Shown here in pieces: positions 4,018 to 28,086 of a stretch of DNA of 28,134 nucleotides. Made by a program: the position numbers and the translations under genes. Source of the DNA: a virus; the IMG/VR virus record IMGVR_UViG_3300020595_002845, positions 1 to 28,134 of that record. The stretch is one strand, 5' to 3'. The notes under the pieces are model-generated. The model saw only the letters and a list, made by a program, of their open reading frames with translations, did no database searches and was not told the origin of the DNA. The number at the start of each line of letters is the position of its first letter. Position 1 is the stretch's first letter.

Positions 4018-4958
4018 ATAAGTTGTAATTTCTTCTCCATTAAATTATATTGTGTTAATGGAGTGGTAGTTTGAATTAATTTTGTAAAATCGTTAAATCC
4101 CATTTCACTAGGGTCTTTCCCCTGAAGTTCTACCATGTAAACTTCTTTACCTTCATTTATAAATTCTTCAGCATATTTTATTGATTTTTTTATTGCATCT
4201 GAATCTAATGCTATATATATTTTTTTAACTGTTGATGTTACTATTTTTTTCATTAAAGAACCCTGTATGTTACTTCCTAATAAAGGTATAGCATTTCTCT
4301 TAATAGCTATAGCGTCAAATGGACCCTCACATAAGACTAGAGGCAAATCCCAATTAATAAACAATTCAAAAGGAATAATATTTCTTGATGCCTCTGGGTT
4401 TTTATATTTTCTATATGGATCCTTTTCAAATGATCTGCCTGTGAAAAAATTAAGTTTACCATTACTATCATAAGATGGAATAATAATCATATTACTATAA
4501 TTTCCATACTCACAATATCCTAAATTATATTTTAAAACATCATCTATAGTAATCCCTCTATTTTTTAAATAATTCCATGCTTTTTTACCTATTAAATCTG
4601 TTGATTGATTACTAATAGGTTTAAAATCATTTGGTAATTTGACTTCTATTTTGTTTTCTACTGTTTGATATTCTTTTTCTTCAGCTACTAACTTATATAA
4701 TTCAGTAAATTTATCTGCTGATGCCCTTAATTGTTTAAATAATGTTGAAATTTTAGTACCTTTTTTCCCACATACCCAACAATGCCATGGATTATATCCT
4801 TTTTTATTTTCTGAAAAGTTAACTTCTAGTTTTGGTTTTGAGTGATTACAAAAGGGACAAGTATATGCTTGATTGCCTCTTGCTGTACGTTTTCCTGTTC
4901 CTAAGACAGAATTTACTAAATTTACTAAAAGTTCATTTACCATGGCAGTAATATACAT
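4014..4958 (-). CDS. DNA primase, zinc-finger plus Toprim (DnaG/T4 gp61-like)
   Basis: A 314-residue protein. The N-terminus has a CHC2-like zinc finger: C34, C37 in YTCPFCNHS and C60, C63 in WHCWVCGKKG. A Toprim core follows, with LCEGPFDAIAI (E211 as catalytic Glu) and YIALDSDA (D252, D254 as the DxD metal-binding pair). NYSNMIIIPSYDSNGKL and GRSFEKDPYRKYKNP resemble the RNA-polymerase-basal segment of DnaG-type primases. It should make RNA primers for lagging-strand synthesis. There is no helicase domain, so a separate replicative helicase must lie outside the window. A second ATG at 4943 (residue 6) is an equally possible start; neither has a Shine-Dalgarno. It overlaps the exonuclease gene by 4 bases. 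Confidence 0.9.
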   Translation of the reverse strand: MYITAMVNELLVNLVNSVLGTGKRTARGNQAYTCPFCNHSKPKLEVNFSENKKGYNPWHCWVCGKKGTKISTLFKQLRASADKFTELYKLVAEEKEYQTVENKIEVKLPNDFKPISNQSTDLIGKKAWNYLKNRGITIDDVLKYNLGYCEYGNYSNMIIIPSYDSNGKLNFFTGRSFEKDPYRKYKNPEASRNIIPFELFINWDLPLVLCEGPFDAIAIKRNAIPLLGSNIQGSLMKKIVTSTVKKIYIALDSDAIKKSIKYAEEFINEGKEVYMVELQGKDPSEMGFNDFTKLIQTTTPLTQYNLMEKKLQLI

Positions 4959-18507: not shown

Positions 18508-20376
18508 TTATATTTGTACTACTCTACCTTTTATATCTTGTTTTGGATTTTTTACTTCAAAAACCATAGGATCTACAGATGGGTAAACTACTCCATTTAT
18601 TGTAGCTGTTGTTATGTCATATGAAAATTTACTATATCCTAAACTTTCTCCAGATAAATTATTTATTGTTATATTATTTACAGTTTGTACACCTTCTACT
18701 TTATCTAAAATTATAGACATATCTTTTAATAAGATAGGTTCATTAATTTGCCATTTATCTATTTCAAAGAAATTTGTTAATGAATCCACACATTTAGTTA
18801 TTACTTCACTATTATTAAAATTAGGTAATACAACAATATCAAATAATACTTCAATATTAACTATATAAGCATCTTTAATATTAATTGAATCATTTATCAT
18901 TCTATATTCTGATAAATAAGTTTGTAAATTTCTTTTTAATAATAAAGAAGCATTTCTTAATTTTTTATCAACATCATAAGATAAAATATATAAATCTAAT
19001 ACTGTTGGCAATTCCCCAGCTTGATAATCTCCAATTTTTTGAGGTTCGGCATGTGCCTTTGCAATTACTCCTAAATTAGAAGGCATTGATAAGGATCTAA
19101 TTAAATAATCTTGTGTAGTTACTGTTCTTAATTGATTTTGGAAATTACCTAATGAATTTTGTCTTATTTCTTCTGTAGTATCTCCATCCATTCCTCCATC
19201 TGCTGCTTGAATGTTATTACTAGATACTGAATTAAATATTTGGTTTGCTAATGCTTCATTTGCTAAATCAGGGTTAATAAATACAATGTTAGTATCATCT
19301 ACTACTGTTAAGGTTCCTGATTCTACATTAGCTGCTGCACCTCCTCCTGTTAAATATCTTACTGTTAAAGTAGTGTTGTAAGGTGCAATTCCATAAGTAT
19401 TAGTAAATACAAAATTTACTGGAGAAAAAGCAGTTGTTAATTTTGTTTTTTCAAAAGGTAAACCTAAACCTACATTATCTGGGTTTGGGATTATTTCTTC
19501 TGTTGTTGATCTAGTACTTCCGGCCCCAAACTGTAATTGAAGATTTTTTTCATTTAAAAATCTAGAAGCAAATCTTCTTTGAACAGTTTTTAATTCTAAT
19601 ATATAAGGGACTTCTGGGTCTATTACATAATTAGGGTCATTTGTAGTTGTGTTTCTTATTGTATTAAATACGTTTTCTTGTGCTAAATTAGGTACTTCAT
19701 ACCAAGTATTACCATCACTATCTACTACATCTAATATGCCTATAATATTAGTATTATTAATTGTTCTTGTGTCAAACTTTTTTGATGCTGTAAATACAAA
19801 CTCTTGAGTATTAACAGTTGCTGAAATTGCTTTTCTTGATTTTTTTAATAAATAATAAGTAGGGTTTAAACCTGATATTTGATATACTGATTCTATAGTT
19901 GGGTCTAATGAACTTGATGCTGAGAAATCAATTGCATCTTCAATTATAAATTTTTGAGTAGAATCCACATTAGATACTACTTGTGTATTTTCAGGAATTA
20001 TTAATGAATAGTTATAATCTGGGACAAATTCTCCTGATACTGCATCAAATATAGATGGTACTTGTTGATAAAAATCAATCATTGTACTTGCAACTGTTGT
20101 AACCTTAGGAACATATCCTAAAGAGTAAGCTAAAGCATATAAATTTGTAGTTTGTCTTGCTTTTTGAATAAAGGTTTCTTGGATTTGATTATCTAAATAA
20201 AATGATAACACATCCCCTACATAAGCAGCCATTTCCATAAATAACATCCCAGTTGATGTTTCGGAAAAATCATTATAAGTATTAGGAAAATACGTTTTAG
20301 AATATTGTATTAATGAATTTCTAAGTGTATTAAAATCTCTATCTATATACCTTATATCTCTTTCTAATTTAGCCAT
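18508..20376 (-). CDS. Baseplate wedge protein, T4 gp6-like (baseplate J family)
   Basis: A 622-residue protein. The opening DIRYIDRDFNTLRNSLIQYS, then TGMLFMEMAAYVGDVLSFYLD, is the signature N-terminus of gp6-like wedge proteins. Residues about 395-430 (DGDTTEEIRQNSLGNFQNQL, TTQDYLIRSL) are the conserved baseplate-J core, in which residues after the TxxE helix lead to a YxxL docking segment. It forms the ring of the baseplate wedge that holds gp25-like and neighbouring subunits. The gp25-like gene lies directly upstream, with a one-base TAATG overlap, the same order as in many contractile-tail systems. Full length and intact. Confidence 0.9.
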   Translation of the reverse strand: MAKLERDIRYIDRDFNTLRNSLIQYSKTYFPNTYNDFSETSTGMLFMEMAAYVGDVLSFYLDNQIQETFIQKARQTTNLYALAYSLGYVPKVTTVASTMIDFYQQVPSIFDAVSGEFVPDYNYSLIIPENTQVVSNVDSTQKFIIEDAIDFSASSSLDPTIESVYQISGLNPTYYLLKKSRKAISATVNTQEFVFTASKKFDTRTINNTNIIGILDVVDSDGNTWYEVPNLAQENVFNTIRNTTTNDPNYVIDPEVPYILELKTVQRRFASRFLNEKNLQLQFGAGSTRSTTEEIIPNPDNVGLGLPFEKTKLTTAFSPVNFVFTNTYGIAPYNTTLTVRYLTGGGAAANVESGTLTVVDDTNIVFINPDLANEALANQIFNSVSSNNIQAADGGMDGDTTEEIRQNSLGNFQNQLRTVTTQDYLIRSLSMPSNLGVIAKAHAEPQKIGDYQAGELPTVLDLYILSYDVDKKLRNASLLLKRNLQTYLSEYRMINDSINIKDAYIVNIEVLFDIVVLPNFNNSEVITKCVDSLTNFFEIDKWQINEPILLKDMSIILDKVEGVQTVNNITINNLSGESLGYSKFSYDITTATINGVVYPSVDPMVFEVKNPKQDIKGRVVQI

Positions 20377-20783
20377 TATTGTAGTAATATATTAATATTA
20401 TCTTCTATCCCAAAATTTACTATTTGATAATTTAAATTAAAATTTATAGTATTATCATCAGGTTGATTATTAAATTTTATTTCTTTAACTTCAACATTAG
20501 GGAAATATACTGAAATATCATTTTGGATTGTAGCTTTTAAATCTTCTGTAGTTACATCTAAAATATTTTCAAATAATAAGTTTCTTAAGTCAGCACCAAA
20601 TAAAGGTTTAAATACTCTTTCTCCTTTATTAGTTAATAAATAATTAACCATATTTGCTTTTATTTGTTCTCTTGTGGTATAAGTAGGTACAAAGACAGCA
20701 TCTCCATTTAGAGGAAAACCAAAACCAACCGCTCTACTAGGTTGGAGATCTATAGGAAATTTACTTTGTATTATTCTTGCCAT
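20376..20783 (-). CDS. Baseplate wedge protein, gp25-like (GPW/gp25 family)
   Basis: A 135-residue protein with the gp25/GPW pattern: basic N-terminus, a REQIKANMVNYLLTNKGER helix, KPLFGADLRNLLFEN (59-73), and a C-terminal beta region (EIKFN, INFNLNYQIV). Length fits the family, which has a lysozyme-like fold but no cell-wall activity in phage baseplates. It initiates sheath attachment at the baseplate in contractile tails. TAATG overlaps on both sides (the 116-residue protein upstream, gp6-like downstream) support coupled translation in fixed ratio. Strong evidence for a myovirus. Confidence 0.9.
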   Translation of the reverse strand: MARIIQSKFPIDLQPSRAVGFGFPLNGDAVFVPTYTTREQIKANMVNYLLTNKGERVFKPLFGADLRNLLFENILDVTTEDLKATIQNDISVYFPNVEVKEIKFNNQPDDNTINFNLNYQIVNFGIEDNINILLQ

Positions 20784-27313: not shown

Positions 27314-27949
27314 CTAGTATTCCAAATGATTTTGGAAATATTTTCTAGTACCATTTTGATTTTTAATAATATAAAAACCTTCTAAATTTAGACTACCAAC
27401 ATCATCCGTTATACATATCAAACCACCATAAAAATCATATATATAATGCGTTAAATCTTGCGTATACTCGCCGACCTCTACACTCCCATAACAGTTGTCG
27501 AAAATAGGATTAAATCCAATATAATTATTATTACCAATTAAATCTAAATTTATTGAATTATTAGGACCTACAATACTTACGGTAGCTTCACAAGTTTCTT
27601 GGTAATATTGAAAAGCTGAGTTTGCACAGTTAAAAGGATCACTCCATTCAGAATATGAGTAAGTAAGAGTATCATTTAAACCTAGTGGGGGGTAGTAATT
27701 AGTAGTATTAGAGGCGATAGTACAAGTAATACCATCAAAACTAAAACCTAATTGTGCAACATATACTGAATCTGGGTGAGGAACCCACCCTGGTGTAGAA
27801 GAATTTGAACAATTATTGTCATTCAAAGTTAAAGTTATAGTTTCTTCATCCCAATCCATATCTAGAAGTTCTAGATCACACGTTGAAATTTGAGATAATA
27901 ATGATGAAGAATAAACAAAAAACGCCCAAAAGAAAAAGAGATTTTTCAT
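27314..27949 (-). CDS. Secreted protein with signal peptide and T9SS-sorting-like C-terminus (211 aa)
   Basis: The start is the ATG at 27949-27947. A longer frame from 28036 begins inside the tRNA-like element and translates its T-arm, so it is rejected. Residues 1-20 (MKNLFFFWAFFVYSSSLLSQ) are a signal peptide ending in SQ, a common flavobacterial style. The mature part has seven cysteines (24, 47, 76, 108, 120, 153, 179), expected to form disulphides outside the cytoplasm, with Asn/Ser/Thr-rich beta strands. The last 45 residues (YIYDFYGGLICITDD, then LNLEGFYIIKNQNGTRKYF) follow the plan of type A type IX secretion sorting domains: a YDxxG turn, then GxYIIxxxxGxxxK. It looks like a host-type secreted protein carried by the phage, and could alter the host surface. 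Function is not known. Confidence 0.6.
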   Translation of the reverse strand: MKNLFFFWAFFVYSSSLLSQISTCDLELLDMDWDEETITLTLNDNNCSNSSTPGWVPHPDSVYVAQLGFSFDGITCTIASNTTNYYPPLGLNDTLTYSYSEWSDPFNCANSAFQYYQETCEATVSIVGPNNSINLDLIGNNNYIGFNPIFDNCYGSVEVGEYTQDLTHYIYDFYGGLICITDDVGSLNLEGFYIIKNQNGTRKYFQNHLEY

Positions 27950-28009: not shown

Positions 28010-28086
28010 TAGGCAAGGAGAGACTTGAACTCTCATGTAACCAATTACTCTTTCTACAAGGTATAAGCTTGAGGAGATACATGCCT
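28010..28086 (-). pseudogene. tRNA-like element, probably degenerate (class II-like)
   Basis: The minus strand has a perfect T-arm, GAGAG-TTCAAGT-CTCTC (28034-28018), and an acceptor stem AGGCATG/CTTGCCT pairing at six of seven positions, with discriminator A at 28010 followed by CCCA rather than CCA. A GTAA-TTGG-TTAC hairpin (28048-28037) just before the T-arm looks like the long variable arm of a Tyr, Ser or Leu tRNA. No D-arm with the conserved GG and no clean anticodon arm can be folded, though a GTA triplet in TTGTAGA could be a Tyr anticodon remnant. It is 3 bases from the tRNA-Arg. Either a decayed tRNA or an unusual one; covariance-model scoring is needed. Confidence 0.4.

Follow-up and report, generated by a model that had tools for sequence, protein, structure and literature searches.

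The gene at the right-hand end of this piece of viral DNA probably encodes a cargo of the host type IX secretion system (T9SS), carrying a divergent and shortened version of the type A sorting signal. Export by this system had been proposed in an earlier note, and our comparisons of sequences and models support it in several ways: a profile-profile comparison, a reverse search of genomes, a weak structural match and the restriction of the gene to phages with isolated relatives that infect Bacteroidota. Yet the curated models of sorting domains are silent on the protein, and the YPNP motif is missing from it. The DNA analysed, hereafter the window, is an entire IMG/VR record of 28,134 bases and is part of a contractile-tailed phage (myovirus). 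Besides two baseplate wedge genes (Table 1), it encodes a DNA primase, a phosphohydrolase-like protein and a protein with a weak match to sigma-70 region 2.

The protein, P0001, is the product of the last complete gene of the window. Its translation (27949..27314) starts MKNLFFFWAFFVYSSSLLSQ and ends YDFYGGLICITDDVGSLNLEGFYIIKNQNGTRKYFQNHLEY, the C-terminus reading as the earlier note quoted it. The frame is under purifying selection (pairwise dN/dS of 0.10-0.26 over the mature protein), and we therefore regard it as a real gene. The signal peptide ending in SQ that had been claimed is indeed there as an N-terminal Sec signal, both by inspection and in the alignment: it ends LLSQ, with a likely cleavage before Q20, a lysine stands ahead of the hydrophobic stretch, and this stretch and the SQ are invariant among homologues. 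Since inspection reveals no lipobox (the region reads QISTC or QIPTC), P0001 is more likely to be a soluble secreted protein than a lipoprotein. The mature part has the seven cysteines that had been counted (C24, C47, C76, C108, C120, C153 and C178), and all of them except C178 are invariant across nine aligned homologues.

Table 1. Position, strand and basis of the features discussed in the text.
Feature	Position	Strand	Basis
Baseplate wedge gene	18508-20376
Baseplate wedge gene	20379-20783		phrog_261, E 3.7e-19
Gene of the secreted protein P0001 (211 aa and stop)	27314..27949	-	Open frame, homologues, purifying selection
Sorting-like tail, residues 154-211	27317..27490	-	hhalign, reverse genome search, structural match
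N-terminal cargo domain, residues 20-153, six invariant cysteines	27491..27892	-	Alignment
Predicted signal peptide, residues 1-19	27893..27949	-	Sequence inspection
Degenerate tRNA-like element	28010..28086	-	Rfam tRNA 27.3 bits, under the gathering score of 29
tRNA-Arg (TCT), 3' part, cut by the contig end	28090..28134	-	Aligned with complete genes

The tail, whose core reads IYDfyGgLi...GFYIIKNqnGtrKYF, forms the C-terminal end of all complete homologues. It escapes the curated models. The profile search that had been proposed as a check gave no score for the window protein with TIGR04183, PF18962 or TIGR04131 (E<=10). Among homologues, TIGR04183 and PF18962 had no match at E<=10 in the records of the first five, TIGR04183 had none at E<=1 in those of contigs L011 and L221, and the type B model TIGR04131 had none in those of L009, L011, L012, L014 and L221. 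Motif A and YPNP, i.e. the A/B region, are missing, and the hhalign alignment begins after them; an invariant N147-P148 is present but is not aligned to YPNP. The resemblance to type A domains lies in motifs C to E (D..G, G.Y..K and an invariant lysine near the end). In motif D, G191 is invariant and residue 193 is aromatic in all homologues; in motif E, the invariant K203 is aligned to the same motif of host domains. The tail evolves faster than the N-terminal domain (pairwise dN/dS of 0.18-0.63 against 0.06-0.23), as expected of a sorting tag. Since neither a curated score nor the A/B motifs were found, we do not file P0001 as a member of TIGR04183, but it most likely functions as such a protein does.

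More sensitive comparisons revealed what the curated models overlook. Against 29 type A sorting domains (CTDs) from seven Flavobacteriales genomes, the tail alignment reached an hhalign score of 26.6 (P 2.9e-5, probability 74%). In 300 permutations of its columns the score averaged 9.4 (sd 2.0, maximum 17.3), and the reversed tail and the N-terminal domain scored 6.9 and 9.5. Because none of the permutations reaches the observed score, we conclude that, at the level of profiles, the resemblance of the tail to type A sorting domains is more than chance. The earlier note had cautioned that its match was by pattern only; this holds for the curated models but not for the comparison with permuted profiles. 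The alignment spans 36-38 columns, not a whole sorting domain. The score drops to 24.0, against 9.3+-1.8 for permuted columns, when a ninth homologue (L221) is added, and P0001 as a single sequence gives a weaker 17.3 (P 0.003). Our own type A HMM gave the P0001 tail 6.4 bits, and the top score among about 2,000 shuffles was 12.8.

The reverse search used a family HMM, built with no T9SS information, on 395 Flavobacteriales genomes (E<=0.01 per genome). It returned 28 weak matches in 27 of the genomes, where about four were expected by chance. All were inspected. In 26 cases the match is a T9SS sorting domain of type A or B at the C-terminus of its protein, and most of these align to residues 110-209 of P0001; many, however, belong to the same few sets of orthologous host proteins, and the independent count is lower than 26. 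The other two matches fell in a signal peptide and in an XdhC-like protein.

Structural modelling gave a weak match. The AlphaFold model of residues 121-211, which we compared with the seven-stranded Ig-like beta-sandwich of type A domains, has a mean pLDDT of 58, reaching about 70 or above across much of the final 45 residues. VIA-align superposes it on the CTD of RgpB (5ag8) with a Z of 4.0 and an rmsd of 2.0 over 46 residues, and its top 22 rows include RgpB (5ag8, 7pq4), RemZ (8gl8_D), NucA (8glk_D), RemA (8gl6_D) and HBP35 (5y1a); all Z values for these CTDs are below 5, tied with unrelated beta-sandwich or Ig-like folds. Foldseek found nothing better than an E of 0.8 for the same model. 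These ties, together with the silence of the curated models and the missing YPNP, are what one would expect if P0001 were a periplasmic or Sec-only secreted disulfide protein, resembling CTDs by convergence on a generic pair of Ig-like beta-hairpins. We consider this rather unlikely given the permutation controls, the in-register alignment of the 26 CTDs found genome-wide and the location of the tail at the extreme end of all complete homologues.

The gene was found in nine phage contigs: one is from a crAss-like phage and the others are from a genus of myoviruses akin to Flavobacterium phage immuto. The eight full or near-full homologues all lie in phage contigs. The earlier note had held that T9SS export would be untenable if a missing sorting-domain score went together with a lack of homologues in Bacteroidota or their phages; only the former was observed. 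Scans of viral contigs showed 72-86% identity for homologues in contigs having the same downstream genes, and those of L011, L012 and L221 are 50-55% identical to P0001; among annotated phages we found no homologue. L011 is a 116 kb contig in which a 1830-aa protein encoded upstream of the gene matches crAss-like phages. This background is distinct from the myovirus genus; the gene has thus passed between unrelated phages, the isolated relatives of which infect Bacteroidota. The baseplate wedge protein of the window shares 44% identity with its immuto counterpart along the whole length, and that of Microcystis phage Mel-JY01 is just as close. Judging from immuto and the crAss-like relatives of the phages bearing homologues, the window phage presumably infects a marine flavobacterium.

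The gene lies less than 200 bp from the end of the window and near the contig end in several homologues, which raises the question of a bacterial gene or a misassembly. This is extremely improbable and in fact already refuted: the gene has the same neighbours where it is internal (L009, L012 and L221, immediately after tRNA-Leu and tRNA-Arg), it recurs in the second, unrelated phage background of L011, and we found no cellular homologue. The 3' part of tRNA-Arg at the window's end was aligned with the complete genes of L009, L012, L014 and L221. Between it and the P0001 gene, directly upstream of the latter, lies a degenerate tRNA-like element conserved in the myovirus genus. Its T-arm shows paired changes across eight contigs (the window, L009, L012, L221, L014, L002, L007 and L008), and it has no clean anticodon stem and no ARAGORN call.

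Three contigs (L014 at 4426-4800, L015 and L016) carry an allele in which the signal peptide and the first half of the gene are deleted and the downstream half is still open and conserved; the gene is thus dispensable. This bears on whether P0001 might instead be a virion component, a decoration of tail or head that uses its CTD-like end to bind PorV or some other part of T9SS as receptor. In the myoviruses the gene shares its strand with the baseplate region and is located upstream of it, and surface parts of T9SS would be plausible phage receptors. Nevertheless, the conserved signal peptide would direct the protein out of the cytoplasm, where virions assemble, and the gene is found beside tRNA genes, outside the structural block, and partly deleted in those three contigs. 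A virion role is therefore very unlikely.

Genes for other putative exported proteins occur nearby. In the myovirus genus, a conserved lipoprotein-like gene (CTKE.....CNGDCET; L009 3135-3818, L012 6177-6857, L221 4394-5104) lies a few genes upstream of the P0001 homologue, and its L009 copy has no family match. In the crAss-like phage, two genes with Bacteroidota-type signal peptides precede the homologue (L011 5701-7984). The first encodes a 393-aa protein resembling an outer-membrane beta-barrel; the product of the second has a thioredoxin fold (PF00085, E 3.6e-5) without the CxxC motif.

The N-terminal domain belongs to no known family. It has no standout match in Pfam, NCBIfam or PHROG, and the P0001 family as a whole has no entry in these collections; a PADLOC scan gave no usable match and a sequence search of the PDB only chance-level ones. 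Searched alone against 395 Bacteroidota genomes, the domain returned four weak matches, about as many as chance would give, and neither this search nor a family-alignment scan of genome contigs found a cellular relative. The full-length AlphaFold model (pLDDT 47) was too poor for use. Three other marine phage contigs (L187, L188 and L190) encode proteins of 434-633 aa that combine an N-terminal NCGCNEYT domain, a spacer with many TDTVY-type repeats and type B domains of T9SS (TIGR04131 scores of 31.6-48 bits for a cut-off of 35, which one of the three exceeds). Membership of the P0001 domain in this family was unsupported (hhalign P 0.028, out of register).

How does P0001 compare with known cargo? 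Like proteins with the type A domain (Por_Secre_tail, TIGR04183 / PF18962), it combines a Sec signal with a C-terminal tag, has D..G, G.Y..K and a lysine of the terminal region in the same order at the protein end, and weakly matches the CTD structures of RgpB, RemA, RemZ, NucA and HBP35. Unlike them, it scores below all curated cut-offs, has neither YPNP nor motif A, is recognisable over only about 40 residues and is encoded by a phage. In the CTD of HBP35, the last 22 residues (motifs D and E) suffice for the export of GFP, and export depends on the motif E lysines (PMC10202324).

The earlier note considered T9SS cargo unusual in phages, which overstates the case, since phage-encoded T9SS cargo is already known. 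It has been reported in Cryophage (PMC7468147) and in crAss-BACON phages (PMC6949934), also Bacteroidota phages, where curated sorting domains are borne by enzymes or BACON proteins. Phage immuto, the closest cultured Bacteroidota phage that we found, provides a further case: its gene 15 (QQO91694.1; L237 / MW353175.1 12691-13422), which carries a cohesin domain annotation, encodes an SQ signal peptide and, at the C-terminus, a type A T9SS domain scoring 46.5 bits, well over the cut-off. This unambiguous cargo gene in a relative counts in favour of the same export for P0001. It shares with P0001 the SQ signal peptide and the C-terminal T9SS domain, but its cargo domain is unrelated, its CTD canonical and its genome location different. 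Immuto and its host, Flavobacterium sp. LMO8, are a cultured pair in which the use of T9SS by a phage could be tested. P0001 differs from these precedents by its small six-cysteine domain and its divergent tail.

Large secreted proteins of phages also led us to a compact C-terminal tail, ITDxLGRxxK....LLFYIYDDGTVEKK. It occurs on at least 15 phage proteins (contigs L191-L219) and in 68 of 196 Flavobacteriales genomes (L245-L294), nearly all of 1-2 Mb, the maximum being 35 matches per genome. It is borne by many varied, unrelated proteins, several with clear signal peptides, and SprA is present in nine of the ten compact-tail genomes tested. No Pfam or NCBIfam model covers it, TIGR04183 had no match to it in the phage records tested, and a literature text search found the string DDGTVEK in none of the papers covered. 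Its similarity to type A domains is no more than suggestive (hhalign P 0.003), and the compact tail is possibly an uncatalogued short T9SS signal of marine flavobacteria and their phages. It resembles the P0001 tail in being short, with D..G and a lysine-rich end, on secreted proteins; the identity of the two is unsupported (profile score of 15.2 against 10.0+-2.5, in the wrong register). The compact tail may matter more than P0001 itself.

As the tail has motifs D (G191 and the aromatic residue) and E (K203), passage through Sec and then T9SS to the surface or medium is the most likely route of P0001. In the infected cell, the Sec system would export the protein, its cysteines would pair in the periplasm and the host T9SS (PorM, PorV, SprA) would read the tail, which is perhaps removed. 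The cargo domain would then end on the surface or in the medium and bind something there. One might speculate on the purpose. Modification of the host surface and superinfection exclusion, both raised in the earlier note, are speculative; our best guess, though still rather unlikely, is interference with adsorption, the protein blocking a receptor to other phages or to the phage's own progeny near a lysed cell, and the cargo may equally have some other surface role. Somewhat more doubtful is the broader view of a mobile family of small surface-acting proteins, shared by myoviruses and crAss-like phages, that hijacks T9SS by a minimal C-E tail to coat the cell and exclude competitors.

If P0001 is indeed T9SS cargo, uncultured marine phages of Bacteroidota export proteins by a host system in a way that curated models overlook, and phage-encoded surface proteins would consequently be under-counted. 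Its shortened tail would then also be a natural test, to be compared with HBP35, of the minimal part of a sorting domain that T9SS requires.
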